A DNA stretch of 64,000 nt from Nitrospira sp. (GTDB lineage: Bacteria; Nitrospirota; Nitrospiria; Nitrospirales; Nitrospiraceae): assembly GCA_036984305.1 (NCBI GenBank), contig BQWY01000001.1, forward strand, positions 992,001 to 1,056,000, written 5' to 3'. A program made the translations under genes and the position numbers. Below, piece after piece: positions 17,333 through 33,374 of this stretch (position 1 is the stretch's first letter; each line of letters begins with the position of its first letter). The notes under the pieces were generated by a model that did not search any database, was not told where the DNA came from, and saw nothing but the letters and a program-made list of their open reading frames with translations.

Positions 17333-17488
17333 CCGGTCCATTCCGAACCTTTCCGCTCATCGTATCTCTCCTCCAATTACCGGTGGTTTCTGCTGCAATG
17401 ACGTCGCGTTCCTGCCATCGACGAATACTGCTCGTACCGTGATCTTGAGAACAATTTTCAGTGTTAGAGTGTTCTACCTAGAAGGTGG

Positions 17489-17564: not shown

Positions 17565-18041
17565 ATGAAAGCCAAAGAAGGGGTGATCAATCTCCTCAAC
17601 AAGATCTTGACCGCCGACTTGACCGCCATTAATCAATATTTCGTGCATGCGAAGATGTGTGACAACTGGGGGTATGAGCGACTCCATCATAAGGTGCGTG
17701 AGCGCAGCATAGACGAGATGAAGGACGCCGACGAGCTCATCGGCCATATCCTCTATCTTGAGGGGGTGCCCAATGTTCAACGCATGAACACGGTTCACGT
17801 TGGTGAGACGGTTCCCGAGCAGCTGAAGGCGGACCTCAAGGCCGAGCAGGAGATGTTGGCACTGTTGAGCGAGGGGGTGGTGCACTGCGCCAAGGTTGGT
17901 GATTTCACGACGCGACATATGCTGGAGGATATGGCGAAGGATGTCGACGAGCACATCGACTGGATCGAAACGCAACAGGAGACCATCGAACAGGTGGGGC
18001 TTGAAAATTACCTGGCCGAACAGATCAAGAAGGACAGCTAA
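17565..18041 (+). CDS. bfr: Bacterioferritin, haem-binding type with altered ferroxidase site
   Basis: 158 residues, the same length as E. coli Bfr and aligning to it from memory without gaps. Met52, the haem axial ligand, is kept (SIDEMKDAD). Ferroxidase ligands differ: position 18 is Asp instead of Glu, position 54 is Asp instead of His and position 127 is Val instead of Glu, while Glu51, Glu94 and His130 are kept. This is the pattern of a haem-carrying structural subunit with a weak or absent diiron site. It starts after GAAGGAGG and is followed 48 bases later by a partner with the opposite pattern. The two probably form a mixed 24-subunit iron store. Confidence 0.92.
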   Translation: MKAKEGVINLLNKILTADLTAINQYFVHAKMCDNWGYERLHHKVRERSIDEMKDADELIGHILYLEGVPNVQRMNTVHVGETVPEQLKADLKAEQEMLALLSEGVVHCAKVGDFTTRHMLEDMAKDVDEHIDWIETQQETIEQVGLENYLAEQIKKDS

Positions 18042-18089
18042 TTGCATTCAAGCGGGCAAATAATTCACCAAGCATAGGATTGAAATGAG

Positions 18090-18560
18090 ATGAAAGCCAA
18101 AGAGGGAGTTGTCGAGCGGCTCAATAAGGTCTTGATGGCGGAATTGACGGCGGTTCACCAATATCTTCTGCACGCCGCCAACTGCAAAAATTGGGGCTAT
18201 GAAGCACTACACGAGCACTTCAGCCATTTGGCGCAGGAAGAAGTCGGTCACGCCTCTGGTCTGATGGATCATATCCTGTATCTAAACGGCACTCCGGACG
18301 TACAGCGCCTCGATGAGGTGGCCGGAGGCAAAACGGTGGAGGAATTGCTTAAGGCCGACCTAAAATTTGAAGTCGAAGACCTGGAGCTCTTGCGGGAGTG
18401 TGTCGCCCACTGTGCCAAAGTCGGCGACTTCACGTCACGCCATTTGCTGGAGCACATGCTGATCGATACGGAAGAGCACATCGATTGGTTCGAAACGCAG
18501 CTCCGGGCGGTCAAACAGGTGGGCCTCGACAATTATCTCAGCGAGCAGATCAAGAAGTGA
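18090..18560 (+). CDS. bfr: Bacterioferritin, ferroxidase type lacking the haem ligand
   Basis: 156 residues, close in sequence to the preceding gene. Here Glu18, Glu51, His54, Glu94 and His130 of the diiron centre are present (QEEVGHA around 51-54), with Thr at 127 beside Glu128. The haem-ligand position 52 is Val, so it should not bind haem as E. coli Bfr does. In several Proteobacteria two Bfr subunits divide these tasks in the same shell; the pair here looks like that arrangement. It is co-transcribed with the first gene. Cys residues at 32, 104 and 108 are shared or nearly shared by both proteins. Confidence 0.92.
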   Translation: MKAKEGVVERLNKVLMAELTAVHQYLLHAANCKNWGYEALHEHFSHLAQEEVGHASGLMDHILYLNGTPDVQRLDEVAGGKTVEELLKADLKFEVEDLELLRECVAHCAKVGDFTSRHLLEHMLIDTEEHIDWFETQLRAVKQVGLDNYLSEQIKK

Positions 18561-18758: not shown

Positions 18759-20510
18759 TCACTGATAGTCCTCATTGAGAGACCGTAGAAACGCGGCGAG
18801 TTGCGAAACGTCCCCGGGTGTCAGCGCGATGCCTTGGAGTTGGGGCGCCCCGTTGCGCAAGGTGGCGGCGCGGGCCTGATCCGACGTGCCGCGGTAGAAG
18901 CCGAGCACTGCCTCGAGCGTGTCGAACTGTCCGGTGTGCATGTAGGGAGCAGAGTGGCCGAGATCTCGAAGTCCCGGCGTCTTGAAGCGTGCGACCGCGC
19001 GATCCAGCAGAGTCGAATCCATTACCGGACAAGGGGTCACGTTATCGCACAGGAGTGCGCGCAGCTTGTTCTGTGGACCAGGTATGTCGGGGTTAGCGAA
19101 GGTGTTCCACACGCCGAGATCCGTATGGCCCGGAGTGCCAGCGGAAGGGATGGCTCGAAAGGGCTCCATAGCCGAGGGATGTGCTTCGGTCGCGGGCAGG
19201 TATTGATCATAATCGGAATTGCGGGCCGCGAGACCAGGGATGGCCAGCCCCGCAAATTGGCCCGCGCCGTGAATGTCATCATATTCCTTCTGGGCCGTCC
19301 CGGTGTTGTGAACATTAAAGTCCGTAAAGTTCGGCGCCATATGACACGCGATGCAATTGCCGATCTTTCCAGCAGCGAGTTCGCCTGGGGTCGGCGGGAC
19401 CATAGACGGCTCCTCGAAGAAGGTTTTGAACCCCGCCAGTTCATCCGTACCGAAGACGAAGGGTTGCGTATGAAATTGGAATTGTCCGTCGGGTCGGTTC
19501 GGATTGAATGACACGAATTGAAGGCCTCCAGCAGTTTCACGTGCAACCACGAGCTGCAAGAGACGCCGGCTGTATTCCAAGTCAGTCTCGTTCGGATCTG
19601 GTTGCTGCGGCAGATTATTGACCTCGAGAAAGACGTCGAAGGGCGAACGGATCGGGATCCCGGCCTCGTCGGTTTGCGAAAACAGCAGCCCGTTGACATA
19701 CGCGGCGACAACTTTGACAACGGCATCAAAGACCTCCTGATCTGTCGCAGAAAGCACCTGAGCACGAAACTCAGGAGGAAGCCGAAACTCATCCGGGATG
19801 TCAGGATTCGCTCCAGTAAACAGCTTCCGGTAGGGGAGCCCGTCCAAGTCCTGGGCCAAATCACCGCTCCCATCGTCGTTGCGGACGACGTACGCAACGT
19901 GTGCAATCGCCTGCGCGCGTTCACCTGGGAGCCATCCGAAGTTCCGTCCCGTGAACGTGGCAGCCACGAGGTCTTCCATGGAGTTGAACTCTCCATCGAA
20001 GTGAAACAACACGCCACCGGGACGGTCGAGCGTGGAATTGACGAGAGGCGGGGAATTGCGCGGTGCATGTGTTTTCCCATCCGCTCGCGCGGGGATGGGG
20101 CTGCGCCGGGCTAAATCGGTATACGTCCGCATGCCGCCTCCGGGCGCGCCGAGGACGTCATCGACCATGTGACAGGCTCGGCAGCTCATCGACAGCCCCT
20201 GGAACGGACCGGGAGCAATTGGTGTGCCTGGAGCCATGGTTTCGACCGAGTCCACCACCGGGTCTGCGACCTTTGCGTTGTTGACGTCACCTCCTGCGGC
20301 CAGGAAGGTACTGAACGACTGAGCGAATCTGGATTCGAGAAAAAGACGTTCACCAACGGCTTCTTGGGCGGCTGGTGTACCTGTCTGCTGGACCGTTGGC
20401 GGGGACTCTGTCCCCCCTGAACAGCTGGCCGCCAAGGCAAGGACAGTAATGAAACGTAGAATATGAAAAGGGGATGCGAGGACCTGCTCTTTGACCGTTC
20501 GAGCACCCAT
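18759..20510 (-). CDS. Dihaem cytochrome c peroxidase/MauG-family lipoprotein
   Basis: 583 residues from ATG 20510, with AAAGGAAGG upstream; the open frame reaching 20648 adds unlike sequence. The N-terminus has a hydrophobic stretch ending LAASC, a lipobox, so the mature protein is lipid-anchored outside the cytoplasm. Two haem c sites are seen: SCRACH and NCIACH. The C-terminal FKTPGLRDLGHSAPYMHTG is the usual end of dihaem peroxidases. The family reduces H2O2 with electrons from a small cytochrome or carries out long-range oxidation of partners. At 583 residues it is longer than standard CcpA (about 330), so the substrate is uncertain. It lies 161 bases downstream of the HD-GYP gene. Confidence 0.85.
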   Translation of the reverse strand: MGARTVKEQVLASPFHILRFITVLALAASCSGGTESPPTVQQTGTPAAQEAVGERLFLESRFAQSFSTFLAAGGDVNNAKVADPVVDSVETMAPGTPIAPGPFQGLSMSCRACHMVDDVLGAPGGGMRTYTDLARRSPIPARADGKTHAPRNSPPLVNSTLDRPGGVLFHFDGEFNSMEDLVAATFTGRNFGWLPGERAQAIAHVAYVVRNDDGSGDLAQDLDGLPYRKLFTGANPDIPDEFRLPPEFRAQVLSATDQEVFDAVVKVVAAYVNGLLFSQTDEAGIPIRSPFDVFLEVNNLPQQPDPNETDLEYSRRLLQLVVARETAGGLQFVSFNPNRPDGQFQFHTQPFVFGTDELAGFKTFFEEPSMVPPTPGELAAGKIGNCIACHMAPNFTDFNVHNTGTAQKEYDDIHGAGQFAGLAIPGLAARNSDYDQYLPATEAHPSAMEPFRAIPSAGTPGHTDLGVWNTFANPDIPGPQNKLRALLCDNVTPCPVMDSTLLDRAVARFKTPGLRDLGHSAPYMHTGQFDTLEAVLGFYRGTSDQARAATLRNGAPQLQGIALTPGDVSQLAAFLRSLNEDYQ

Positions 20511-20671
20511 GACGAACCTTCCTTTGTTGAAATTAAAAATACAAGTTCGGCGCCTCTTGTGCTGACTATGGCGGCGTAGGGGCAGGGGGTCTGCGGAGTG
20601 CAGACGCCCTGCCCGGCGAGACAGAGTGGGCACAACCCTGCCTCGCATGAAACGGAACTACACGGGACGGG

Positions 20672-21358
20672 TCACATCACTCCATCGATCTGATCGACAC
20701 ACAAAACCATTGACGCGCAAGACTCGACCAAATCAGGGTCGAGCTGCGTTCCCCCAACCACACGCAAAAGGCCTATCGCCGCTGGGACGTCGGCTGTCGC
20801 GCCCTGATGGGCGGCCGGAAAGAGAAAGGCGTCGAAGGTGTCAGCCACGGCGAGAATTCTCGCGCCCTGTGGAATGAAAGAGCCCCGGAGTCCATACGGA
20901 TATCCGCAGCCGTCCCAACGCTCGTGATGGTGTGCGATCCAAAGCGCTGGACGACGTAGAAAGGAAATAGACTGCAACAACTCGGCGCCGGCTCGCGGGT
21001 GACTTTGGTACAGAGCGAGTTCACGGGGTGAAAGTTGATGGGACTCACTCAGCAGAGCAGCGGGAAGCGTCAAGAGACCGATGTCGTGAAGAAGGCCTGC
21101 CAAGGTGAGGTCGAATAACTCGTCCGGAGACAGTCCTGCTACCGATCCAATGTGATGCGACAGATCGGCTGTCCGTCGTCCATGACCGAGTTGCCGTGGT
21201 GACATCGACTCGATCAGCAACACGAGCTTGCGGAGGGACTGAAGGATCGCCGCCCGATGAGCTCCGGCCATGGGTTCGCCGAAATCCAGCGCCGTGAGTT
21301 CATTCAGGATGTATCGAAGATTACCGTTGGTACAGTTGTCCACTGTGCGAATGGCCAT
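20672..21358 (-). CDS. HD-GYP domain protein, probable cyclic-di-GMP phosphodiesterase
   Basis: 228 residues. A helical N-terminal region of about 60 residues is followed by the HD domain: LAGLLHDIGLL gives the HD pair, HHERWDGCGYPYGLRG is the full HHExxDGxGYPxGLxG signature, and ILAVADTFDAF follows. Intact metal ligands suggest an active cyclic-di-GMP hydrolase. There is no receiver, PAS or membrane segment, so it is soluble and input may come through the N-terminus. Start ATG 21358 has GAGG six bases upstream. A strong terminator just upstream separates it from the flavoprotein operon. Confidence 0.85.
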   Translation of the reverse strand: MAIRTVDNCTNGNLRYILNELTALDFGEPMAGAHRAAILQSLRKLVLLIESMSPRQLGHGRRTADLSHHIGSVAGLSPDELFDLTLAGLLHDIGLLTLPAALLSESHQLSPRELALYQSHPRAGAELLQSISFLRRPALWIAHHHERWDGCGYPYGLRGSFIPQGARILAVADTFDAFLFPAAHQGATADVPAAIGLLRVVGGTQLDPDLVESCASMVLCVDQIDGVM

Positions 21359-21386: not shown

Positions 21387-21422
21387 CAAAAAAGCCCAAG
21401 ATCATCATCGTGATCCTGGGCT
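21387..21422 (-). terminator. Rho-independent terminator of the flavoprotein operon
   Basis: On the minus strand an imperfect stem (AGCCCAGGATCA pairing with TGATCTTGGGCT, one mismatch) and a six-base loop are followed by six Ts. It lies 58 bases after the stop of the membrane protein gene at 21480 and so ends the operon that begins near 25030. Confidence 0.85.
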
Positions 21423-21479
21423 CTGGGTGAAAAACCGCTGGCCTCTCGTGCAGACGATTCTGTTGGGGATGCGCGCTGG

Positions 21480-21992
21480 CTAGGTCGCTCCCTTCCCTGC
21501 CAAAAACGGTTCCTTCAAGATCCACATCTCATAGAGTGGGATGGCGAAGAGACCAATGAAACTGATGAACATCAGCATGTCCCCGGCCAGCATCGTGAGC
21601 GCAAAGACAGGGGACACGTAGGTGATCAACCAGGGAGAGACCAGATCCAAAACAACTCCCACAAATGAGCCATAGGTCAACCCGGTTTTTATTCGATGGC
21701 TGGTCCCGGTCAGGTAGAGCACATGCACGAGAATCATGAAGACCACCGGCATCGTGAATAAATGAAAGTGCGTGATCTCGGCCAACTCTCGAAACGACAT
21801 GGGTTCGCCGAACGTTCGGTCGTTTCCTCGGTAATGATCCGCCACCCCTTGTAGTGACAAGCTGGTCATGCTGTGCGCCCAGAAGAAGGAAAATAAAAAC
21901 CCCGCCAACATCAGCAGCAAGAACAGCGTATACAACAGTCGAATATGACGATCGGTATCGCGGAGACGAAACTTCGCATTGAAGTTGCGCAT
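21480..21992 (-). CDS. Four-helix inner-membrane protein of the flavoprotein operon
   Basis: 170 residues with four predicted membrane helices (about 19-42, 76-97, 102-124 and 126-150). Histidines sit at helix ends or inside: FFWAHS in helix 1, THFHLF and ILVHVLY in helix 2. Such placement would allow b-type haem binding or quinone contact, but no established family is recognised. It lies 14 bases after the FMN-binding gene and is the last gene before a terminator. The simplest inference is that it is the membrane partner passing electrons to, or taking them from, the periplasmic flavoprotein. This is a guess from context. Confidence 0.6.
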   Translation of the reverse strand: MRNFNAKFRLRDTDRHIRLLYTLFLLLMLAGFLFSFFWAHSMTSLSLQGVADHYRGNDRTFGEPMSFRELAEITHFHLFTMPVVFMILVHVLYLTGTSHRIKTGLTYGSFVGVVLDLVSPWLITYVSPVFALTMLAGDMLMFISFIGLFAIPLYEMWILKEPFLAGKGAT

Positions 21993-22006
21993 AGTGAGTC
22001 GCGGGA

Positions 22007-22699
22007 TCAGAACCCGAACAAGGACTCCAAAAAGCCCTTGTCTCTCTGTTGCGCCGCGATCTGGTCGCTCCCGATCCCCTGGGGCTTCAAATAGAATTCA
22101 TCGATCAAAACCAGAACTCGTTTGACTCCGGCGCTCATGGAGCGGACCGACATGGTGGCCCCGCTGATATTGATGATATCTTTATTGATGCGAATGGGAT
22201 CAAATACCGTCTTTCCCTCGTATTGGACATTGAACCGCTTCGTCCGCACTTCACTGCCGCGTGCTTCGCGGAATACCAATAATTCAACCGCCAAGCATTC
22301 GCCTTGTGCATCGGCCGCGACCATGTAGGTCATCGGCTTATGCTTCCCGATGGTATTTTGGATCACGGCGTAACCGTCGATCCGATTGCCAGTCTGCGCA
22401 ATGAAGATTTCGAATCCTTGCTCGGGGAATTTCCAGCCGATCCGCTCTTCAATCTGGTGCTTCTGCTCAGGGTTGAGCCGAATGGTTTCGGTTCGAATGC
22501 GATCGGAGTTCTTAAAGATGAGATGGAGCGCATCCTCCTCAGTCAGGTATACCTCCGCGTGCATCATTTCCTGTTCCGTCAAATATCGCCTGAGCTCGGT
22601 GTCCCAAATTCGCTCGGCCCGAGCATCCGGAGGCACAGAACTCGCGAACATGAACATAATTCCACAGAGACCAATGGCGATGGTTAGGTAACGGAACAT
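22007..22699 (-). CDS. Exported FMN-binding-domain protein with flavinylation motif
   Basis: 230 residues from ATG 22699, with AGGGA upstream. A signal peptide or N-terminal anchor (FRYLTIAIGLCGIMFMFASSV) is visible. Residues 85-190 fit the FMN-binding domain of RnfG/NqrC type, ending with NISGATMS. Thr182 in SGAT is the position to which ApbE transfers FMN through a phosphoester bond. An apbE gene lies 3 kb away, facing the other way from a shared control region, which fits this being its target. It overlaps the preceding lipoprotein gene by 16 bases. Likely role: one-electron carrier in the periplasm, perhaps in ferric reduction; the substrate is unknown. Confidence 0.82.
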   Translation of the reverse strand: MFRYLTIAIGLCGIMFMFASSVPPDARAERIWDTELRRYLTEQEMMHAEVYLTEEDALHLIFKNSDRIRTETIRLNPEQKHQIEERIGWKFPEQGFEIFIAQTGNRIDGYAVIQNTIGKHKPMTYMVAADAQGECLAVELLVFREARGSEVRTKRFNVQYEGKTVFDPIRINKDIINISGATMSVRSMSAGVKRVLVLIDEFYLKPQGIGSDQIAAQQRDKGFLESLFGF

Positions 22700-23145
22700 C
22701 CGTGATCCCTCAGCTTTGTTTTGATTCGGCCGAGCGCTTCGGCCGTAGCCTCCTCGGAAGGGTCGATCGGCCACCATTTGGTGGCCTGTTGACTGACGCC
22801 TCCACGGGCGTGCCAGCGTTGGCGATTTTCTAAGACACTGATCGAAGACGTGTCTCCCAGTTGCCTGACTGCCACCGTCATCCTGGCCCGCTCATAATTA
22901 CCAAAGCCCTCGCGGCTGAAAACTCCAAATGAGCGATCTGCGGCGGGCACTTCCAACCAAGCCGTCTCGATACGACCGCTGATCTTGTCTTGGGACGTGA
23001 TGGAGTACCCTTTCATGGCCTCGACCGTGGATTCCCATGCGGTATCATAAGGACAGACGACATATTGCTCGCGGGAGCCGCTCAAGGAGGCGCAGCCGGC
23101 AACAGCGAACATCAAGACGACAAGTACCCAATGCTGCATTCTCAT
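22684..23145 (-). CDS. Hypothetical lipoprotein
   Basis: 153 residues from ATG 23145; an open extension to 23196 looks unlike a signal sequence. HWVLVVLMFAVAGC is a lipoprotein signal with Cys as the acylation site. The mature part has alternating strands (TAWESTVEAMKGYSI, GRIETAWLEV, RARMTVAVRQ) resembling small outer-membrane-associated lipoproteins, but I cannot name a family. It sits 71 bases after the porin and overlaps the FMN-binding gene by 16 bases, so it belongs to the same transcript. It may help place the redox protein at the envelope. Confidence 0.65.
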   Translation of the reverse strand: MRMQHWVLVVLMFAVAGCASLSGSREQYVVCPYDTAWESTVEAMKGYSITSQDKISGRIETAWLEVPAADRSFGVFSREGFGNYERARMTVAVRQLGDTSSISVLENRQRWHARGGVSQQATKWWPIDPSEEATAEALGRIKTKLRDHGCSVT

Positions 23146-23216
23146 GTGTCGCTTAAACAGGATAGCCGGAGTAGTTCCAGGCAGAGGAGGAGCCACTCCG
23201 GCCTCCCGACTTCCGT

Positions 23217-24704
23217 TTAAAAATAAGTGGCAGCGGATATCACGAGTGCTTGGTCGTGAATCTGCTGCCCCGTATTAGGATTAAACGACTTCGGCAAATA
23301 CTGATAGCTGATTTTAAAGACGGCATCCTCGATCGGACGGTAATTGAGTCCGAAAGAAATCTGCTCCAGATTGCCTTCGCTTTCTCCCCGATTATCCATA
23401 TTGAGATTGACACGATCGTAGCGGATGACCGCCGTAAACGTGGATCCCTCTCCAAACCGCTTGGGCGACCAATTGGCCAGGAACTTCGGCATGAAATGAT
23501 AGTTGCCTTGGATGTAAAAGCCCGCCATGCGCTGAGGTGGGGCTGCGTTCGGATTCAACGTGTTCACGCCGGTGAGGAGCGTGCCAGGCGCGGCGCCGAA
23601 GGTATTCCCAGTAATCGCACGGGAATTACCGCGTGCATAGGCCCATGCGGCTTCCCCGATCAGTTCGAACGGACCGCGTTGGAAAGTCCAATCCACGGCC
23701 ATGATGCTGAGGGGGTTGTAGCTGGTCGCTGATCCGTTCCCGAAGTAGCCTGAACCGCCCACTTCTGCGCCCAGCCAGGGGCTGAACGCGAGACGTCCCG
23801 AAACGGCTTTTCCATTATTGATGTCCAGGCCGTCATCAGAGGGACATTTGCGCTGGCGCGAATTCCGTGTGCCGCTTTCCTCATTCATACGAGGACTGCC
23901 GTCCGTGTTGAATCCGCACGGGCCGGTGGTCACGTAGAATTCATAGTCCAGTTTACTGGTGCGCCCTGGGTAGAATGTCCCATAGAAACCCGCACCAGTT
24001 TCCGCCATGGTGGTTGGAATGACAAACCGGTCGACGAGCGGCCGATCGGTCAAGTCATTCAGCGGCGAATCGTGCAAGAGGTTGAATTTGCCGATCGGTA
24101 TCAGGACGATTCCGGCTCGAATGTTGAACGGCTCGTTCACCAGGTAGTCAATCATGGCGAACTCAAGCCCGATTTCGGCTCCCTGCGTTGCATCTTCTCG
24201 GATACCATGTTCGATCTCGAGCTCAGAGGCAAACTTCACGTGCTCGGTGATGTCCGCATAGATGAAGGGCACAAACCGTTGTTGATCGAACCCGTTGGTC
24301 GTGCCGTTCCCAAAGCCGCCCGTCTCAAGAACCGCGTTCTTCTGGGTACGATACTGGATGTCTGCGTATCCGCCCACGACGGCCTTCGGAGCCGAGACGA
24401 AGGGCTTGGCATATACGAGACGTCCTGAACCAGTGGATCCGAAAGAGAGGTGTGCCTTTTCTTCGCCGGGACGCTCCACTGCGATCTCCGTCATTGGGCC
24501 GGTCGCTTTAGGATATTGCTCGGCCGCTGCATCCGGTTCACCAGGCTGCATCGGCCCTTCTCGACGCTGACGCTCTTGCAATCGTTTCTCCACGGCCTCG
24601 TCTACCATCTTTCGTATTTCTTCGGGGGTCATCTCTTCCGCCAACGCCGGCATGACCGGCAGGCTAGCGATCACCAGGGTCCCGAGGATTGACCGAATCC
24701 TCAT
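23217..24704 (-). CDS. Outer-membrane porin, phosphate-selective-porin (OprO/OprP)-like
   Basis: 495 residues with a cleavable signal peptide (RSILGTLVIASLPVMPALA), then a charged helical segment (MTPEEIRKMVDEAVEKRLQE) typical of trimeric porin N-termini. The rest is beta-rich: YADIQYRTQ, VKFASELEIEHGI, TSKLDYEFYVTTGP, GSTFTAVIRYDRVNL, and it ends in ATYF with a terminal Phe, the outer-membrane assembly signal. It is most like O/P-type porins; the solute cannot be told from sequence. GCGGAGG precedes the ATG. It is transcribed from the Fur-box promoter region, with the 58-residue zinc protein upstream by 128 bases. Presence in a flavoprotein operon is unusual. Confidence 0.8.
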   Translation of the reverse strand: MRIRSILGTLVIASLPVMPALAEEMTPEEIRKMVDEAVEKRLQERQRREGPMQPGEPDAAAEQYPKATGPMTEIAVERPGEEKAHLSFGSTGSGRLVYAKPFVSAPKAVVGGYADIQYRTQKNAVLETGGFGNGTTNGFDQQRFVPFIYADITEHVKFASELEIEHGIREDATQGAEIGLEFAMIDYLVNEPFNIRAGIVLIPIGKFNLLHDSPLNDLTDRPLVDRFVIPTTMAETGAGFYGTFYPGRTSKLDYEFYVTTGPCGFNTDGSPRMNEESGTRNSRQRKCPSDDGLDINNGKAVSGRLAFSPWLGAEVGGSGYFGNGSATSYNPLSIMAVDWTFQRGPFELIGEAAWAYARGNSRAITGNTFGAAPGTLLTGVNTLNPNAAPPQRMAGFYIQGNYHFMPKFLANWSPKRFGEGSTFTAVIRYDRVNLNMDNRGESEGNLEQISFGLNYRPIEDAVFKISYQYLPKSFNPNTGQQIHDQALVISAATYF

Positions 24705-24832
24705 GATCTGCCTCCGCTAAGCAAGAAAGTTATTGGTCTGACTCGGGACTCGCTGGTCTCTGGTCTGCTTCGTTTTGACAACGAGCGTGATCGTTGTGTG
24801 ACCAAACCTCCTTTCTGAATACGGTTAGTAGA

Positions 24833-25009
24833 CTAATTTGTTCCGGACGACCATCCTTCGATCGCGCTGAAGGGGATAATCACGATGCGCTTGCATCGTT
24901 TGCATTTCAATTCGAGCCCGGTTGAGCAAATTTTTGCGATCAACTGACCGCATTCGCAGCGGGTTTCACTCGGCTGGGACACGGTCTGTTGCGTAATGGT
25001 TTGATTCAT
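24833..25009 (-). CDS. 58-residue zinc-ribbon (Com-like) protein
   Basis: A short frame running from ATG 25009 to TAG. The product has CECGQLIAKIC and then LELKCKRCKRIVIIP, i.e. two CxC/CxxC knuckles around a short strand pair. This resembles the phage Mu Com-type zinc finger family (RC..CG.LLAK...LE.KCPRCK). Com proteins bind mRNA or DNA; small chromosomal relatives are mostly unstudied. It is the first gene after the Fur-box promoter (16 bases from box to start) and precedes the porin, so it should respond to iron. A regulatory role for this operon is possible. Confidence 0.65.
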   Translation of the reverse strand: MNQTITQQTVSQPSETRCECGQLIAKICSTGLELKCKRCKRIVIIPFSAIEGWSSGTN

Positions 25010-25024
25010 GATCGGTTCTGAAAT

Positions 25025-25039
25025 TGAGAACGATTATTA
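25025..25039. promoter_or_regulatory. Fur box
   Basis: TGAGAAC-G-ATTATTA compares with the 7-1-7 Fur consensus TGATAAT-N-ATTATCA with 11 of 14 positions matching. It overlaps the -10 element of the minus-strand promoter, so Fur with iron would block transcription of the zinc-ribbon, porin and flavoprotein operon. It lies 125 bases before the plus-strand lipoprotein gene and may control both directions. A fur gene is in the same island. Confidence 0.65.
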
Positions 25040-25066
25040 ATATCTCGCATGTCGCAGAAATGTCAA
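25037..25066 (-). promoter_or_regulatory. Sigma70 promoter of the flavoprotein operon
   Basis: On the minus strand a perfect TTGACA (25061-25066) is followed after 18 bases by TATTAA (25037-25042). The predicted start is near 25030, about 20 bases before the first codon at 25009. The -10 element lies partly in the Fur box. Confidence 0.65.
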
Positions 25067-25163
25067 GTAGAAGATTTCCAGTCGACTTGATAGAAAACAA
25101 ATTGAGAGTCAGCGCTCCCCCTATGTCTGGACAAGCGTTTGAATGTCCTGATTAAATGGCTAC

Positions 25164-25799
25164 ATGTTGGGGGGGGAACGGTGGAGTTTGAGGTGGAGTC
25201 TGTTTGGGCTTGTGGTGCTCCAGTTCCTCTCTCTTGTCTCCTGTGCGTCCAGCGTTGGCATGAGCCCCGACGACTCTGGCGGTCCGAATACAGGCGAGTC
25301 TCTCGTGGCGGCTCGAGTCATTACGGTCCTGCTCGAGCGTCCCGGGCGCATGTACGATCCATCACTTATTTTCTTTGAACTGCAACATGAGGCGACTGGC
25401 GAACGCTTTCGTGTCGATGTTGAGAATGCCGACAAGGTCGTGGTTTTTCAGGTTCCCCCCGGTTCTTATCAAGTGACCCGTGTGCAGATCGGGGAAGGGC
25501 CGTTTCGGTCGATGGCGAACCTCGCACTTGAATTTCAGGTGGAAGGAGGGCGGCCTGTCTATTTGGGCACGTGGCGCATTGGCGTGGAGAGTCCACGATC
25601 AGATCGGAAGGTGTTGATCTCGACCGTCAATGGGTCGCCGGAACAAGACAAGGATCTGGGCGTTGTTATGACCGAATATCCCGAGGTGACGGCGCAGGAT
25701 TTCCGAGTCGCGGCGTTGACTCCCCCCGAGACTGAAGCTCGTCTATACGAAGTCATGCCGTATCCACGATATCAACCGTATTTCCGCAGGCATTGGTAG
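25164..25799 (+). CDS. Hypothetical lipoprotein preceding apbE
   Basis: 211 residues. The N-terminus FGLVVLQFLSLVSC is a lipoprotein signal with Cys about 27 residues in. The mature part has a compact beta-type domain (SLIFFELQHEATGERFRVDV, FQVPPGSYQVTRVQIG, YLGTWRIGVES) suggestive of a carboxypeptidase-regulatory or transthyretin-like fold, but no family is certain. It ends YPRYQPYFRRHW. Start ATG 25164 has no clear ribosome site, though a G-run follows it. It is immediately followed by apbE (10 bases), so both form a divergent unit from the Fur-box region. A role in the flavoprotein system is inferred from position. Confidence 0.65.
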   Translation: MLGGERWSLRWSLFGLVVLQFLSLVSCASSVGMSPDDSGGPNTGESLVAARVITVLLERPGRMYDPSLIFFELQHEATGERFRVDVENADKVVVFQVPPGSYQVTRVQIGEGPFRSMANLALEFQVEGGRPVYLGTWRIGVESPRSDRKVLISTVNGSPEQDKDLGVVMTEYPEVTAQDFRVAALTPPETEARLYEVMPYPRYQPYFRRHW

Positions 25800-25809
25800 G
25801 GTGGTGTCC

Positions 25810-26850
25810 ATGCTGATACGGCGCATGGGCGTCTGGGCCATCGCCGCCCTGAGTCTTGTGCAGGTCGGTGCGCTGGATGGGTGTCGCAGCGAACGATCCT
25901 TGTTTCGTCCGTCGTCCCACGCGCTCGTCAAACGGGCCCAAATGCACATGGGCACGCTGGTCACGCTGACGGTCGTGGCGCCCACGCATGCGATTGCTCA
26001 GGAAGCCGTTGCCGAAGGGTTCACAGAGATTCGCCGGCTGGAGGCTTTGTGGAGCGCGTGGATTCCAACCAGCGAAATATCTCAAGTCAACGCATCGGCT
26101 GGTCGCGCTCCCGTTTCCGTCAGCGAGGAAACGATGATACTTTTGAGACGATCGATGGAGGTCTTCCAGGTTACGGAAGGCGGTTTCAATATCGCCCTCG
26201 GGCCCGTCGTCGATGCATGGGGGATCAGTCGTGAGCCACGAGTGCCAGGGGCACAGGAGCTGGATCGGCTCCGGTCGCTGATCGAGCTTTCGAGTATGCA
26301 ATTGGATCCCAAGGCAGGCACCGTGTATCTCCCGGAGCCAGGCATGCGGATCGATATTGGTGGAATCGGAAAGGGCTACGCAGCGGATCTGACGGCAGCG
26401 GTGCTCCGCAATCGCGGCGCGACGGCCGGCGTCGTGGCGTTGGCGGGCGATATCAAGACATTCGGAGACCTTCCCGATGAGGCGGGGTTTTCATTCGCAA
26501 TACAGCATCCGAGAAAGTCAGGAGCGGTGCTGGCCAGACTGAATTTGAAAGATGACGCCGTGTCGACCGCGGGAGACTACGAGCGTTTTTTCGAGCAGGA
26601 TGGTGTCGTGTACCACCACATCTTGGACCCGAACACGTTGCGTCCTGCGCGAGGATGTCAGAGCGTGACGATCGTGGCGAAAGAGGGTGTATGGGCAGAT
26701 GGACTCGATACCGGCATTTTCGTTCTTGGGCCCGAGCGCGGAATGGCGCTAATCGAGTCACTCCCAGATGTCGAAGGTGTGATCGTTGATGCGGAGGGGC
26801 GTGTGTCGATCTCGAGCGGTCTCCAGGGACGCGTCCAGTTGGAACCGTGA
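25810..26850 (+). CDS. apbE: FAD:protein FMN transferase
   Basis: 346 residues. Lipoprotein-like N-terminus with GALDGC (the Asp before Gly-Cys is unusual for a lipobox). ApbE motifs: QMHMGTLVTLTV, DIGGIGKGYAAD, ALAGDIKTFG, VSTAGDYERFF, HHILDPNTLRPA and ADGLDTGIFVLG, covering the FAD and metal sites. ApbE moves FMN from FAD onto Thr or Ser in SGAT-type motifs outside the cytoplasm. The matching target is the protein at 22007-22699. ATG 25810 is preferred over GTG 25801, which directly follows the previous stop. It converges on tonB with only 5 bases between stops. Confidence 0.93.
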   Translation: MLIRRMGVWAIAALSLVQVGALDGCRSERSLFRPSSHALVKRAQMHMGTLVTLTVVAPTHAIAQEAVAEGFTEIRRLEALWSAWIPTSEISQVNASAGRAPVSVSEETMILLRRSMEVFQVTEGGFNIALGPVVDAWGISREPRVPGAQELDRLRSLIELSSMQLDPKAGTVYLPEPGMRIDIGGIGKGYAADLTAAVLRNRGATAGVVALAGDIKTFGDLPDEAGFSFAIQHPRKSGAVLARLNLKDDAVSTAGDYERFFEQDGVVYHHILDPNTLRPARGCQSVTIVAKEGVWADGLDTGIFVLGPERGMALIESLPDVEGVIVDAEGRVSISSGLQGRVQLEP

Positions 26851-26855
26851 CTCGA

Positions 26856-28118
26856 TTATGAGCGTTTCTTCAGCGAATATCGGATGGGAACTTGCAGGGA
26901 AATGCGCTCCTTGCCTAGCGGGCGTTCGAGCTTGAGTGGAGAGAGCCGTTGCAACAGCGCAACGGCTTCCTCGTCGAGAATCGGATAACCCGATGACTTG
27001 ACGATGGTCAGATCTTCGATGGTGCCGTTGTTCGTGACCACTAGTTTCACCACAACCTTGCCCTGCCAATCCTTCAGTCGGGCTTCCGCCGGGTAGCGAA
27101 TCGTTTCCGATATTCTTCCCATGAGACCTTGTGCCAGCCACGAGTAGTCGACTTTCTCAGGTGCCGGAGAGGAGGTCGGGGCAGATGCCGGTGAGGACGG
27201 CGGTGAAAGGCTCGCAACCTGAGGAGGAGGCGAGGGTGCTGGTGCTGTTTCGACGGGAGGCGTCGATTCCGACAACGAAGAGGGCTGTTCTGGCATGATG
27301 GGCGATTCCGTATTCGTCGGTTCCAGACTGGGAGCGTTGTTGGTTGAATTCGCCTGCGTCGGCTCAACCGATTGGTCGTCTGGGGTTGTGGCCGATGGTC
27401 CCATAAATTCATCATGCAAAGTGGGTGAAGCGAGAGGTGGTGGCACCTCGGTAGCCGTCGACGGTTCCGTCACGGCCTGTCGTGAGGCCTGCAATTCCGC
27501 CAATGGGGTGTTCGGAGCAGCCTTCGGTGTGGTCGATGCGGAAGGGAGGTCGCTGGCATCCGGTATGGACGTGGACATCTCCAGCGACGCCGGAGGGGCA
27601 ACTTCGCTTGGGGCTTCCGGAGGAGCGACTCGGGCCACAAGCGGGGTCGGGTTGGGTTCAGTTCGGGCACCTGCCGTGGCTGGATCGGTCAGCGGGGTGG
27701 GCCGCAGTTCGACCGGAGGTCTTGCAGCCTCAGCGCCCGCGAGTGGCTGGGGTGTGGGAGGTTGATGTTCAAAAGGTGGAACATTGGTTTCTGTCTGGGT
27801 CACGGACTGTAGGGGCTGTGAAGAGGATGCCTCTCGGTAATGACGAGCAGTAGGCTCCGAAGCATCCGGAGGCGGACTTGCGTGATGAGGAACGCTGTCA
27901 CCAATCTTGGACGAGTCTGGAGTTCGAGGTGCAGCCGAATCTGGAGAATGCACGACCGCGACCTCCCATCGGAAGGGCTCTGGCTGAGGGGCCAGGCGCA
28001 GGGATGTCACAAAGAGAACCGACAACCCCACCAGAACACCGTGTAGAGCGCATGACAGGAGCCAGCCTTGAAGTCGGCCGTACGCATACACTGGCGTGTG
28101 GGCCGACGGTGAAATCAC
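26856..28118 (-). CDS. tonB: TonB energy-transducing protein
   Basis: 420 residues, long for TonB. One N-terminal helix (GWLLSCALHGVLVGLSVLF) contains the conserved Ser-His face that contacts ExbD. About 250 residues of Pro/Ala/Ser/Thr-rich linker can span the periplasm. The C-terminal domain has ISETIRYPAEARLKDWQGKV, VVKLVVTNNGTIEDLTIVKS and GYPILDEEAV, the classic TonB fold. It overlaps exbD by 4 bases and ends the iron-uptake run. It would energise TonB-dependent receptors, but none is encoded in this window, so the partner receptor is elsewhere. Confidence 0.92.
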   Translation of the reverse strand: MISPSAHTPVYAYGRLQGWLLSCALHGVLVGLSVLFVTSLRLAPQPEPFRWEVAVVHSPDSAAPRTPDSSKIGDSVPHHASPPPDASEPTARHYREASSSQPLQSVTQTETNVPPFEHQPPTPQPLAGAEAARPPVELRPTPLTDPATAGARTEPNPTPLVARVAPPEAPSEVAPPASLEMSTSIPDASDLPSASTTPKAAPNTPLAELQASRQAVTEPSTATEVPPPLASPTLHDEFMGPSATTPDDQSVEPTQANSTNNAPSLEPTNTESPIMPEQPSSLSESTPPVETAPAPSPPPQVASLSPPSSPASAPTSSPAPEKVDYSWLAQGLMGRISETIRYPAEARLKDWQGKVVVKLVVTNNGTIEDLTIVKSSGYPILDEEAVALLQRLSPLKLERPLGKERISLQVPIRYSLKKRS

Positions 28119-28489
28119 GATCGCACCACCTCCAGGCTGACCTGGTGAAACCCCAGTCCTCGCACTTCGTCGACCACTCCAACGAACCGTTCTAATCGCG
28201 TCACACGATCCGCTCTCACGAGGACTGACGAATCGCGTGAGTGAGGGGTCAACCCTGTCTTTAAACCTTCGGTCGTCACCGGATGATCGTTGAGGTATAG
28301 GTCGCCCTCTGCGGTCAACGTGATGACCAGCGGGACGTCCCGGCGGTCGCCTGCTTCCTTTGCTTTGGCGAGGTCAACGGGGATTTGCCCGGTCGTGATA
28401 AAGGTGGCGGTGGTCATGACGATGACCAATAGCACCAGCATCACATCCACCAAGGGGATGACATTGATCTGGTTCAGTTCACGATCCAT
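28115..28489 (-). CDS. exbD: Biopolymer transport protein ExbD
   Basis: 124 residues. NQINVIPLVDVMLVLLVIVM is the single membrane helix with the proton-conducting Asp, followed by TGQIPVDLAKAKEA and a periplasmic domain ending with VRADRVTRLERFVGVVDEVRGLGF, all matching ExbD/TolR. With ExbB it forms the proton-driven motor for TonB. Overlaps exbB by 11 bases and tonB by 4, so the three are translationally coupled. A Tol role is less likely because tonB is adjacent and no tolB or pal is near. Confidence 0.94.
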   Translation of the reverse strand: MDRELNQINVIPLVDVMLVLLVIVMTTATFITTGQIPVDLAKAKEAGDRRDVPLVITLTAEGDLYLNDHPVTTEGLKTGLTPHSRDSSVLVRADRVTRLERFVGVVDEVRGLGFHQVSLEVVRS

Positions 28490-28904
28490 GTTGCACCCGA
28501 TGCAAGGTGAGCAGCTCTGCGACCCGACGGCGGAGCACGTTGTTCATGACGACACAGGGGATCGCCACCAGGAGGCCCACAGCCGTGGCTTTCAGAGCGA
28601 GGCTGAGTCCGATCATAATGGTACTCACGGCCATCTGGCCCGAGGTACCCATCGTATGGAAAGTCAGCATAATCCCGAGCACGGTTCCCAGAAGTCCGAT
28701 ATAGGGGGCATTGGCAGCGACGGTTCCGATCACAACCAGGCGCTTCGTAAGCTCGACCTCGAACACCTGCTGATTGGGAAACGATCGCGGATCCACCCGA
28801 CGGTAGAACAACCACCGCTCGACGGCGACGGCGACCGACCAGAGACTCAGTAGCAGCAGCAGGCCAATGATCCCGTAATCAACGGCTTCTTTAAGTAGAT
28901 CCAT
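28479..28904 (-). CDS. exbB: Biopolymer transport protein ExbB
   Basis: 141 residues from ATG 28904, with GGAG six bases upstream. An open extension to 29072 overlaps the preceding ABC ATPase gene and is not supported. There are three membrane helices, with NAPYIGLLGTVLGIMLTFHT and ALKATAVGLLVAIPCVVMNN, the conserved MotA/TolQ/ExbB core. It is short for ExbB (commonly 200 or more), lacking a large cytoplasmic loop extension, but the motor core is complete. Confidence 0.92.
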   Translation of the reverse strand: MDLLKEAVDYGIIGLLLLLSLWSVAVAVERWLFYRRVDPRSFPNQQVFEVELTKRLVVIGTVAANAPYIGLLGTVLGIMLTFHTMGTSGQMAVSTIMIGLSLALKATAVGLLVAIPCVVMNNVLRRRVAELLTLHRVQHGS

Positions 28905-28968
28905 GCGGAACTCCCGGTCCAGGACAATAGGGCCAACCCATACCGATAGCTGAACCTGGAAAGACCTG

Positions 28969-30204
28969 TCAACCTTCGGGCGGAGGGGACGGAAACCGGT
29001 GCGGTTTGGCTGGCTCCTGTTCCGGAGTGGGGCGGGTCGGAACCGCCCCCGGCTGTGTCTCCAACCGCGCATCTGGGAATACGACTGTGTGAGAGACGAA
29101 GGTTGACAGTGTCACCTTAGCGCCGATCGGGTAGACGGCCGTCGAGGCCTCGCTGCTGTGAACGACGCGGCCGGACCGTAACCGAATGCGGTAGAGGTTC
29201 TCGGAACCCCTGAATTGACGCGCCAAGATCGTGGCATCTCCCGCCCCAGCCGAGGAGATACACACGTCGTCAGGACGGATCATGACGACCACGGAGGTGC
29301 CGGCGGGGATGGATTTCTGATGGACGAATTCGCCCAGTTCGGTGACGACCTTGTCGTGTTGGGCCACGCCTGGAATGAAATCGGCCTGGCCCACGAAATC
29401 AGCTACGAAGGGAGTGGCGGGCAGGTGATAGATCATCTCGGGCGTATCGAGCTGCTCCAAGCGGCCGTGATTTAAGACGGCGATACGGTCGGCGATGGCG
29501 AAGGCCTCATCGTGATCGTGCGTCACGAGAACCGTCGTGGTATTGGTCCGCTTCAGGAGACTGTGCAGTTCCTGCCGCATATGCGTGGCCATGTCGGGAT
29601 CGAGATTGCTGAACGGTTCGTCCAGCAGCAGGATCACGGGATTGTGCGCGAGCGCACGGGCAAGAGCCACGCGTTGCTGCTGCCCACCCGAAAGCTCATG
29701 CGGGTAACGCCGTTCCATCCCCGTGAGACCGGTGAGGGCCAGCATGGCGGTAATGCGTGCATTCCGCTGTGGTTCGGCCATGCCTCGCAGACCGAACCCG
29801 ATGTTCTCGGCGACCCGAAGATGGGGAAACAGCGCATACTCCTGGAAAACCATCCCGACACTCCGTTGCTCGGTGGGCACTTGAGTATCCGTCGATGACA
29901 CAAGGCGGCCGCCTAACCGAATGTCGCCCGTCGTTACCGGCTCAAAGCCGGCAATGGCCCGGAGGACGGTCGTCTTCCCACAGCCTGACGGGCCCAGCAG
30001 GCAGACGATTTCCCCGGATCGCACGGCGAGGGAAATGTCTTGGACGGCAGGGCGAAGTGGGTCGTAGGCGCAGCTCACCTGTCGAAGCTCGAGAACCACG
30101 GGCGTATCCAATCGCACGCGTCCCGAACCTGGCTCATGCAACACGTCCGCGCCGCCGACTGCGGAATGTTTGCTCCCGGTGCGCGAAGACCCGTCCGACT
30201 TCAT
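28969..30204 (-). CDS. fbpC: Ferric iron ABC transporter, ATP-binding protein
   Basis: 411 residues from ATG 30204. It contains Walker A GPSGCGKTT, Q-loop FQEYALFPHL, signature LSGGQQQRVALARAL, Walker B ILLLDEPFSNLD and H-loop VTHDHDEAFAIAD. The C-terminal TOBE-like part (VMIRPDDVCIS...) is typical of FbpC/PotA-type ATPases. A 30-residue N-terminal extension is less conserved and the true start could be further in. It overlaps fbpB by 4 bases. Together with fbpA and fbpB it forms an importer, most likely for Fe3+. Confidence 0.9.
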   Translation of the reverse strand: MKSDGSSRTGSKHSAVGGADVLHEPGSGRVRLDTPVVLELRQVSCAYDPLRPAVQDISLAVRSGEIVCLLGPSGCGKTTVLRAIAGFEPVTTGDIRLGGRLVSSTDTQVPTEQRSVGMVFQEYALFPHLRVAENIGFGLRGMAEPQRNARITAMLALTGLTGMERRYPHELSGGQQQRVALARALAHNPVILLLDEPFSNLDPDMATHMRQELHSLLKRTNTTTVLVTHDHDEAFAIADRIAVLNHGRLEQLDTPEMIYHLPATPFVADFVGQADFIPGVAQHDKVVTELGEFVHQKSIPAGTSVVVMIRPDDVCISSAGAGDATILARQFRGSENLYRIRLRSGRVVHSSEASTAVYPIGAKVTLSTFVSHTVVFPDARLETQPGAVPTRPTPEQEPAKPHRFPSPPPEG

Positions 30205-31802
30205 GTCGCGATCTCCGTATTCTTCCAATCTCTGGCTACCAGCAGCGCCAGCGCAGGGAGACTCAGCACTACGATCAATAAGGCCGGTGCCGCTGCCGAC
30301 GTGTACAGTTCTTCACTTGCTTCCAACCAGACGCGCACGGCCAGCGTGTCGAACCCGACAGGTCGCAGGAGCAGAGTCGCCGGGAGTTCCTTCATGCATT
30401 GCAGAAACATCAGGGTCCATGCGCTCACGAACCCATTCCAAATCAAGGGAATGGTCACGCGGCGCAGGGCCCCCCCAATGTTGCACCCCAATGTGCGCGC
30501 CGCTTCCTCGACGTTCGGGGTGACCTGTTGAATCGCGGGCTCAAGCGACTGGAGCCCGACGGGCAGATAATGCACCACATACGCCAAAATCAACAAGTAC
30601 ACCGTGCCGTACACGCCGGGGACCACAGCGATGGCCAACACAAGCAGGGCCAGCGCTGCGACCGGACCAGGCAGCACGTAGCCGGCATACGTCGCGTGCA
30701 GGCACACGTGGTTCAGCCATGTCGGCTGTCGAGTTGCCAGGTAGGCGACGGGAATGCCCAATAGGACCGCCGACGAGGCCGCCATACCCGACAACAGGAT
30801 GGTGTTCCAGGTGAACTCGATGAATCGGTGATCGAGGAGGCCTTCCTGGAAGGCATCCGTGCTCCACCACATCAAGAGGCCGGCTGGGATGCCGAACGAG
30901 AGGAGAAACGTCGATGCCGTGATCACCAGCGCGCCCATTCGTCCCGCCAGGGAGAGAGGTTGAGGCGTGGGCCGTCGAAACCGTCCACCCGTTTGGTAGA
31001 AACGGCTGCGGTTCCTGAACCAGCGCTCGCTGGCGAAGAACACGATGGCAAACACGACGAGCAATACGCTTAGGACACTAGCCGCGGCATAATCATAACG
31101 TCCGGTCATCTGCTGGTACACCGCGTAAGTGAGTGTCTGATAGCGCAAGAGTGAGACGGCACCGAAGTCAGACACCACGTACAAGACGACCAGCGAAACC
31201 CCGGCAAAAATGGACGGGCGAAGCAGAGGCAGCGTGACCCGGAGAAACGTCTGCCAGGGGCGAATCCCGCAGGAGCGCGCCACTTCCTCGAACGAGACGT
31301 TCATGCTTAATAACGCGGTTCGTGTCAGCAGATACACGAAGGGAAACGTGTCCAATGCCATGACCACCGTGACGCCCCAGAACGATTGAGGTGCAAAGAT
31401 ATGGGTCCCTGGTCCGGCGATGGCTTGCCAAAACCGATCGACCGGCCCGTGCGTTCCGAGCAAGTAGGAGTACACGTACGCCAGGACATACGTGGGCATT
31501 GCCAGCGGCAGCACGAGCGCCCATTCCCAGATCCGGCGGCCCGGGAAATCCAGTCGAGTCACCAGCCAAGCGAGCGACACGCCCAAAGCGAACGTCAGCA
31601 GCCCAACGCTGCATGCCAGCGAAAAGGTGTTCCACAGCAGCTCGGGAAGGCGGGTTCGCCACAGGCGGCCCCAGATGGCCGTGTCCGCGGTGAGGGCCCG
31701 ATACATGACGTAGAGGAGGGGGAGGGAAAGGAGTCCGGCGATACCCACCACGAGCACTTGCATGGGCGAGAGCGCATGGTGGCGAAGTACCGAGGCGGTC
31801 AT
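30201..31802 (-). CDS. fbpB: Ferric iron ABC transporter, permease
   Basis: 533 residues; ATG 31802 is used (TTG 31811 is also in frame). About twelve membrane helices in two homologous halves, each with an EAA-type loop: EEVARSCGIRPWQTFLRVTLP in the first and EEAARTLGCNIGGALRRVTIP in the second. This fused two-domain permease is the FbpB/CysTW-like form used for iron import. It lies 16 bases after fbpA and overlaps fbpC by 4. Confidence 0.92.
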   Translation of the reverse strand: MTASVLRHHALSPMQVLVVGIAGLLSLPLLYVMYRALTADTAIWGRLWRTRLPELLWNTFSLACSVGLLTFALGVSLAWLVTRLDFPGRRIWEWALVLPLAMPTYVLAYVYSYLLGTHGPVDRFWQAIAGPGTHIFAPQSFWGVTVVMALDTFPFVYLLTRTALLSMNVSFEEVARSCGIRPWQTFLRVTLPLLRPSIFAGVSLVVLYVVSDFGAVSLLRYQTLTYAVYQQMTGRYDYAAASVLSVLLVVFAIVFFASERWFRNRSRFYQTGGRFRRPTPQPLSLAGRMGALVITASTFLLSFGIPAGLLMWWSTDAFQEGLLDHRFIEFTWNTILLSGMAASSAVLLGIPVAYLATRQPTWLNHVCLHATYAGYVLPGPVAALALLVLAIAVVPGVYGTVYLLILAYVVHYLPVGLQSLEPAIQQVTPNVEEAARTLGCNIGGALRRVTIPLIWNGFVSAWTLMFLQCMKELPATLLLRPVGFDTLAVRVWLEASEELYTSAAAPALLIVVLSLPALALLVARDWKNTEIAT

Positions 31803-31818
31803 GGGCGGCAACGCGTCG

Positions 31819-32912: not shown

Positions 32913-33374
32913 TCAATTCCGGCACTTGGAGCAGAGGCCATACAACTCCAATTTGTGGGTTGTGATCGTAAAGCCGTGTTTCGATGCGACTTCATCCTGA
33001 AGCCGTTCAATATCCTCGTTCTCGAACTCGACAATCCGATTGCATCCTGTGCAGATCAAATGATCGTGATGCCCCTTATGCGAGACGTTGTCGTACTGGG
33101 TTTGCGATCCAAAGTGACGGGCTTGCGCCAAACCCACGTCGCAAAACAGATTGAGGGTACGATAGATCGTGGCCAAACCCAAGTGTGGATCCTTACGAGC
33201 TAACTCGTGATACATCTGCTCGGCCGTGATGTGTTCCTTTTTCAGAAACTCGACCAAGATCAGTTCGCGTTGGCGGGTGAGCTTGAGATTGTTCTTAGCC
33301 AGATGGCTGCGAAGCGCGTCCATCTCCTTGGGGGATTTCACTGCATGGGTCTTGCCCGGCATAGCAATGCTCAT
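32913..33374 (-). CDS. fur: Ferric uptake regulator Fur
   Basis: 153 residues. The winged-helix domain has KLTRQRELILVEFLKKEHITAE and LGLATIYRTLNLFCDVGLA. The metal region has HKGHHDHLICTGCNRIVEF and a C-terminal ELYGLCSKC, so both metal sites and the zinc Cys pairs are present. This fits Fur better than PerR or Zur. Start may be ATG 33374 or ATG 33362: a possible promoter (TTGACC at 33397-33402 and CTTTAA at 33374-33379, spacing 17) runs into the first ATG and would favour 33362. Fur probably acts at the box at 25025 and on the fbp-exb-tonB genes behind it. Confidence 0.93.
   Translation of the reverse strand: MSIAMPGKTHAVKSPKEMDALRSHLAKNNLKLTRQRELILVEFLKKEHITAEQMYHELARKDPHLGLATIYRTLNLFCDVGLAQARHFGSQTQYDNVSHKGHHDHLICTGCNRIVEFENEDIERLQDEVASKHGFTITTHKLELYGLCSKCRN

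Follow-up and report, generated by a model that had tools for sequence, protein, structure and literature searches.

A conserved Nitrospira gene cluster predicted to serve iron acquisition through flavinylated electron transfer in the cell envelope

The window analysed here is a stretch of 64,000 nucleotides (contig BQWY01000001.1, positions 992,001 to 1,056,000, forward strand) from the genome of Nitrospira sp. GCA_036984305.1, which comprises 4.35 Mb in 11 contigs and is 99.97% complete. It contains a cluster that probably encodes an electron-transfer module for iron acquisition. Five genes lie on the minus strand in the order ZNR, POR, LP1, FMN and TM4, and two, LP2 and apbE, are read from the plus strand. 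All seven open reading frames named in a first-pass annotation of this DNA were found where it had placed them. FMN (22007-22699) encodes an exported FMN_bind protein that is a predicted ApbE substrate, apbE (25801-26850) encodes a FAD:protein FMN transferase, and POR (23217-24704) encodes an outer-membrane porin of the Porin_O_P family. These three proteins score above their Pfam cut-offs (PF04205, PF02424 and PF07396, respectively), whereas TM4, LP1, ZNR and LP2 have no family match in Pfam or NCBIfam. TM4 (21480-21992) is a membrane protein with four helices that belongs to an unnamed family, LP1 (22684-23145) is a lipoprotein folded like the N-terminal domain of BamC, and LP2 (25164-25799) is a divergent lipoprotein and a variable accessory. 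ZNR (24833-25009), the first gene of the operon, encodes a 58-residue zinc-ribbon protein with a CxC...CxxC pattern. A terminator-like stem-loop (21391-21424, minus strand), with a 14-pair stem and a T run, ends the ZNR-POR-LP1-FMN-TM4 unit. The FMN gene and apbE are 3.1 kb apart. The genome has a single FMN_bind protein, a single ApbE and a single Porin_O_P porin of the present type, all of them inside the cluster, so their co-location is not one choice among many paralogues.

The FMN protein has a signal-like N-terminus, as judged by reading of the sequence, and a SGAT motif at residues 179-182. The first-pass annotation had numbered the threonine of this motif Thr182, which is exact. Export, the PF04205 domain and the [ST]GA[ST] motif are together the features of a FMN_bind-type ApbE substrate. 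The cluster ApbE (PF02424, E 2.4e-78) carries both family motifs, D-x-G-G-x-G-K-G and HHxLDP, in alignment with 7esa, the nearest solved ApbE (E 8.9e-49). As there is one FMN_bind protein and one ApbE in the genome, any FMN_bind-type target of ApbE in this organism is this FMN protein. Other lineages join the two domains. In Planctomycetota an N-terminal FMN_bind domain and a C-terminal ApbE domain form a single polypeptide in 12 of 12 loci, and those fusions that came from a motif search retain TGAT and the ApbE motif DLG(G/A)IGKG. In a locus from another Nitrospirota family (L054) the fusion is reversed, with ApbE followed by FMN. Fusions in two opposite orders are strong evidence for an enzyme and its substrate. 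Flavinylation by ApbE follows from the known families, and it is predicted with high confidence that the cluster ApbE flavinylates the FMN protein, as had been proposed before. One locus (L043, genome G108) has no ZNR, LP2 or apbE, and a search of that genome finds no ApbE; its FMN protein retains the SGAT motif. Partial or full second copies of FMN, ApbE, LP1 or POR occur near the first in L155 (genome G036), L128 and L130.

The promoter of ZNR, TTGACA-16-GATATT, begins with TTGACA at 25066 and its -10 element ends at 25039. A Fur-box-like operator, GATATTAATAATCGTTCTC (25026-25044, minus strand), overlaps this -10 element. It matches the Fur consensus at 15 of 19 positions and is the top-scoring site in the window, where at least 15 matches are expected by chance 0.03 times per strand (shuffled sequences). 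A second Fur-like frame (13/19) overlaps it at 25020. As a repeated regulon motif the operator found no support, with a single genomic site at up to 3 mismatches. In 49 Nitrospira loci, selected because they have the operator, its sequence is nearly invariant and the spacer varies; the -35 hexamer is kept at the 16-bp spacing in 47. Other genera have differing Fur-like sequences at a roughly equivalent position. The window also contains a fur gene (32913-33374, minus strand; PF01475) that had been overlooked. It is the better-scoring of the two Fur-family genes in the genome, matches Fur structures with E 9e-32, and lies directly upstream of fbpA at the head of an adjacent fur-fbpABC unit. Orthologues of fur are found at the cluster in L054, L059, L084, L102 and L105. 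A conserved Fur-box-like site at the promoter together with a nearby Fur gene is the pattern of a Fur-controlled operon, and the earlier proposal of a Fur box and iron control is well supported as a prediction.

Conservation and linkage to iron uptake genes

Among 148 Nitrospirota genomes, TM4 is present in 30 of the 32 that belong to the same family and in all five from the rest of the order. The FMN subtype of the cluster (E <1e-60) is found in exactly 37 of the 148, the next score being 7e-18; these are the same 35 genomes plus G119 and G006, and in 37 of 37 the TM4 gene adjoins the FMN gene. Both are missing from two genomes of the family. In G121 the absence is probably an assembly gap, since its apbE is close to the end of a contig; the genome of G105 measures 2.0 Mb and is 99% complete. 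The order TM4-FMN-LP1-POR is retained in a sample of 21 Nitrospirales loci. Of those whose contig extends far enough, all except one also have ZNR and a divergent apbE, and tonB/exbD/exbB and fbpCBA usually lie behind. A wider scan compared a FMN-protein profile with 84,980 species genomes and annotated the resulting loci with profiles. Counting only Nitrospirota loci with enough flank, TM4 was found in 62/62, LP1 in 61/62, POR in 54/55, ZNR in 44/49, apbE in 39/43 and FbpC in 35/41. Nearly all nitrite-oxidising Nitrospira examined, Nitrospira defluvii (L127) among them, carry the linked set of porin, FMN protein, ApbE and TM4.

The core genes also recur together beyond Nitrospirota. In anammox bacteria and related Planctomycetota (Scalindua, Kuenenia and others) LP1, present in 11/11 loci, is followed by the FMN-ApbE fusion, and TM4 is next to the fusion in 6/12. 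A Dadabacteria locus (L074) has a single run POR-FMN-ApbE-TM4. In one Latescibacterota locus (L133) a PepSY_TM protein, a PepSY cytochrome in the place of TM4, comes after POR-FMN, and next to it are two genes of ferritin-like type, of which one was scanned and confirmed. In a tree of FMN domains, Planctomycetota and Nitrospirota form separate clades with strong support for each, which gives no indication of a recent transfer between them; the long branches of L059, L133 and L067 are placed unsurely. The first-pass annotation had proposed seven proteins acting as one unit, and had suggested a search for recurrence of TM4, FMN, LP1 and LP2 with apbE. The core genes, including the first three of these, do recur as one conserved unit. 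LP2 is variable, being missing from many otherwise complete loci, and is outside the core.

The strongest new evidence, which exceeds what the first-pass annotation had noted, is the linkage to fur, fbp and feoB. In L084, L102 and L105 the genes fur-fbpA-fbpB-fbpC-POR-LP1-FMN-TM4 form a run on one strand, and in L081, L101 and L124 the arrangement matches this as far as the contig extends. These contiguous runs bear out the suggested link to a neighbouring FbpABC importer. In L059 fur and feoB are upstream of ZNR-POR-FMN-TM4, and in L054 fur is adjacent to ZNR on its upstream side. A short open reading frame matching the C-terminus of FbpC (L059:4269-4424) lies between feoB and ZNR and is likely a relic of a lost fbp operon. 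In the window, fbpA (31819-32880, minus strand) encodes a ferric-binding periplasmic protein nearest to the Fe(3+)-binding protein 7li0 (E 3e-53), with FutA1 (2pt1) at E 6e-51 and the YY pair aligned. Ferric binding of the FbpA/FutA type is therefore predicted from the known families. The fbpB-type permease (30201-31811) and the fbpC-type ATPase (28969-30228) follow on the same strand. The assignment of the ATPase rests on fbpA, as it scores below every NCBIfam cut-off shown (PhnT2, PotA and ferric FbpC). The unit thus extends past the limits first drawn for it, with fur, fbpABC and exbBD-tonB on one side and bacterioferritin genes on the other.

The TM4 membrane protein and known flavinylated systems

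The AlphaFold2 model of TM4 (pLDDT 84.9) has membrane helices at residues 15-43, 67-93, 99-125 and 128-157, the first of which is followed by a short interfacial one. The only residues invariant across all TM4 classes are Y54, H75, H77 and W157. The two histidines form a HxH motif within one helix and would be near the periplasmic side, provided that the basic N-terminus is cytoplasmic as the positive-inside rule suggests. TM4 has no sequence relative in Pfam, NCBIfam or the PDB, and no match to NapH-, MsrQ-, PepSY-, DsbD- or NQR-like components in Pfam or NCBIfam. The best Foldseek match (E 2.2) was not convincing, and the best Z score, 8.7 to cytochrome c oxidase subunit I, is within the noise for helical bundles; no structural relative is therefore claimed. 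An assignment to DUF4405/FezC was rejected (no PF14358 match; hhalign probability of 0.6% with a three-row alignment; two invariant His only). It had been suggested earlier that the membrane protein binds haem. Since the known flavin-linked cytochromes carry more His ligands, this lacks sequence support: TM4 has two invariant His rather than four ligands, and no DUF4405 match. A TM4 dimer could still hold haem.

Three classes of TM4 occur in Nitrospirota. Class a is accompanied by a FMN protein of the flavinylated type and class b by a degenerate FMN-like protein without SGAT; in class c the first loop on the periplasmic side contains CxxCH. This cytochrome c motif, between helices 1 and 2, is seen in L055-L058, L060-L063 and L065. 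Relatives of the class b type, in which the degenerate protein has a HKGHAG-like start, are L064, L067, L068, L069, L070 and L072. In L069 (1519-7406) the degenerate protein is beside CbiM/CbiQ/CbiO, a cobalt/nickel energy-coupling factor (ECF) transporter, and a DUF4198-like gene; such loci are possibly a flavin-free cousin devoted to metal uptake. L058 has a FMN-like gene flanked by a class b and a class c TM4. That the site is partnered by a flavin in class a and apparently by a c-type haem in class c suggests a redox role for TM4, and the context of class b suggests metal handling. The odds that TM4 is the electron donor to the FMN protein are about even. Rather more tentatively, and at somewhat less than even odds, TM4 may found a new membrane redox class which, in several phyla, supports the uptake of metals through redox chemistry in the envelope. 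Class a would feed FMN proteins, class c a cytochrome c of its own, and class b would comprise a flavin-free relative beside a nickel/cobalt importer.

Five membrane partners of flavinylated systems are described by Meheust 2021 (PMC8238504), where the links to iron are VIT1, P19 and Fur-controlled PepSY clusters; its main text mentions neither a porin nor Nitrospira. The PepSY class is linked to iron reduction and Fur there and in PMC13001220. Huang 2024 (PMC11334425) adds DUF4405 and FezC cytochromes. The PepSY-like flavinylated iron reductase clusters (PMC8238504) and FoxB-type siderophore reductases resemble the present cluster in having an ApbE-modified periplasmic protein, a membrane partner, Fur control and ties to iron uptake, and PepSY stands in for TM4 in L133. 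However, TM4 is unrelated in sequence, with four helices and two invariant His; the substrate is a FMN_bind rather than a DUF2271 protein, and the porin and the BamC-like lipoprotein are extra. DUF4405/FezC cytochromes (PMC11334425) are also small His-containing membrane proteins associated with apbE and iron, but the DUF4405 type is a six-helix protein with four His at its centre, whereas TM4 has four helices and HxH only. P19/FTR1 iron assimilation clusters (PMC8238504) likewise place a FMN_bind protein beside an iron importer; here the importer is FbpABC or FeoB, and no P19/FTR1 was identified among the genes examined. RNF/NQR subunits G/C share the FMN_bind domain with [ST]GA[ST], but here the protein is exported and stands without its complex, no further RNF/NQR subunit having been identified in the cluster. 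Literature searches turned up no paper that links ApbE to Nitrospira and none describing it in anammox bacteria, and the passages found in a Nitrospira genome paper list the iron ABC transporter AfuABC and nothing further on iron uptake. The earlier impression that the gene set is unlike any described system agrees with the literature searched. The cluster works like known flavinylated systems but with a membrane partner of its own.

Proposed function and alternatives

The linkage of this set to iron-uptake genes and fur suggests that it is probably an undescribed route by which iron is reduced within the cell envelope ahead of its import. When iron is short, Fur would leave the operator and ZNR-POR-LP1-FMN-TM4 would be expressed. 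The porin would let in small ferric complexes, and LP1 may aid its assembly or hold it. ApbE would place FMN on Thr182 of the exported protein, and TM4 in the inner membrane would take electrons from quinol, or from a different donor in the membrane, and hand them to this FMN on the periplasmic side. The FMN would then reduce ferric chelates, freeing iron for capture by FutA-like FbpA and import through FbpBC, or through FeoB where it replaces Fbp. Control of the unit by iron and a role in iron acquisition are very likely; the reduction of ferric complexes is, on balance, the favoured activity. The proposal as a whole is of a flavinylated module that transfers electrons in the service of iron acquisition, and is probably a ferric-chelate reductase of the periplasm with a dedicated porin. 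It is given a probability of about 0.6; this and the other degrees of confidence are judgements and were not computed. The gene set, its conservation, the operator, the fusions and the linkage to fur, fbp and feoB are seen directly in the genomes, while the donor role of TM4, the direction of flow, an iron chelate as acceptor, the substrate of the porin and the role of ZNR are inferred.

Several points weigh against this proposal. TM4 does not have the four-histidine haem set of the known flavin-linked cytochromes, and it is not nearby in six Planctomycetota loci. FbpABC imports Fe3+, with no obvious need for reduction, and no cytosolic NAD(P)H partner is seen in the cluster. Lastly, the TM4 relatives with a SGAT-less FMN-like protein and the ECF transporter of L069 mean that TM4 may handle metal, not electrons. 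If TM4 bound metal at its HxH site, the FMN protein would be reduced from elsewhere. This is improbable but is the alternative that survives best. The invariance of Y, HxH and W in all classes, the class b context with CbiM/CbiQ/CbiO and the lack of a haem family match are consistent with it, while the cytochrome c motif in the periplasmic loop of class c and the substitution of a PepSY cytochrome in L133 argue for an electron carrier.

The flow of electrons could also be reversed, with the FMN protein and TM4 oxidising Fe2+ admitted by the porin, passing electrons to the membrane and leaving Fe3+ for FbpA. Characterised flavinylated periplasmic proteins are mostly reductants, which counts against this. 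The ferric specificity of the partner importer speaks for it, but the ferrous importer gene feoB takes the place of fbp in L059, and PepSY, which is linked to iron reduction, takes that of TM4 in L133. Although PMC8238504 notes that flow is reversible in principle, oxidation is unlikely here. Still less probable is a role in respiratory or extracellular electron transfer, in which porin and flavoprotein would pass electrons through the outer membrane to an acceptor outside the cell. The porin constantly accompanies the FMN protein, and outer-membrane electron conduits exist elsewhere. However, the operator and the fur, fbp, feoB and ferritin neighbours indicate assimilation, a single FMN domain would be too small to span the outer membrane, and no multihaem cytochrome is seen in the cluster. 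That unrelated genes were merely kept together in Nitrospira is hardly credible: LP2, the HD-domain gene, the tonB block and the dihaem gene do differ between loci, but the core holds across Nitrospirota, Planctomycetota and Dadabacteria with well separated FMN proteins, a distribution that already contradicts chance.

If the proposed iron reductase is real, there is a further kind of membrane partner for flavinylated electron transfer, the purpose of the sole ApbE in this Nitrospira is explained, and envelope flavin chemistry is tied to Fur, Fbp and Feo. Both Nitrospira and anammox bacteria have central roles in the nitrogen cycle, and the supply of iron probably matters to them because their enzymes are rich in it.

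Accessory and neighbouring genes

The fold of LP1 (AlphaFold2 pLDDT 85.9) matches BamC (2yh6; Foldseek E 3e-7, Z 11.3), an assignment to the BamC N-terminal domain by fold, and LP1 may serve the porin. ZNR has the motif RCxCGxLIAKxxxxxxELKCKRCKR conserved in Nitrospirota. The first-pass description of it as Com-like was not upheld: there was no Pfam match at E 10, no NCBIfam or PDB match, and the best phage match was at E 8. RNA control between ZNR and POR was also considered and rejected (no conserved fold among 64 sequences; no Rfam match).

Behind apbE are the conserved neighbours tonB (26856-28118; PF03544, E 4.8e-18), exbD (28115-28489; TIGR02804, E 1.7e-25, below its cut-off) and exbB (28479-29072; TIGR02805 above cut-off, start uncertain), all on the minus strand. 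Two bacterioferritin genes (17565-18560, plus strand), both above the TIGR00754 cut-off, flank the island on the other side. A Fur-like 19-mer (17441-17459, 13/19) is about 100 bp 5' of the first, and a similar one was found in 5 of 6 loci tested. A gene for a MauG/MbnH-like dihaem protein (18759-20648, minus strand) and a HD-domain gene (20672-21358) are repeatedly seen as neighbours in Nitrospira; like LP2 and the tonB block, they vary from locus to locus. A contig labelled uncultured Nitrosospira (L108) carries a Nitrospira-type cluster, groups with Nitrospira in the FMN tree and is probably a mislabelled bin.

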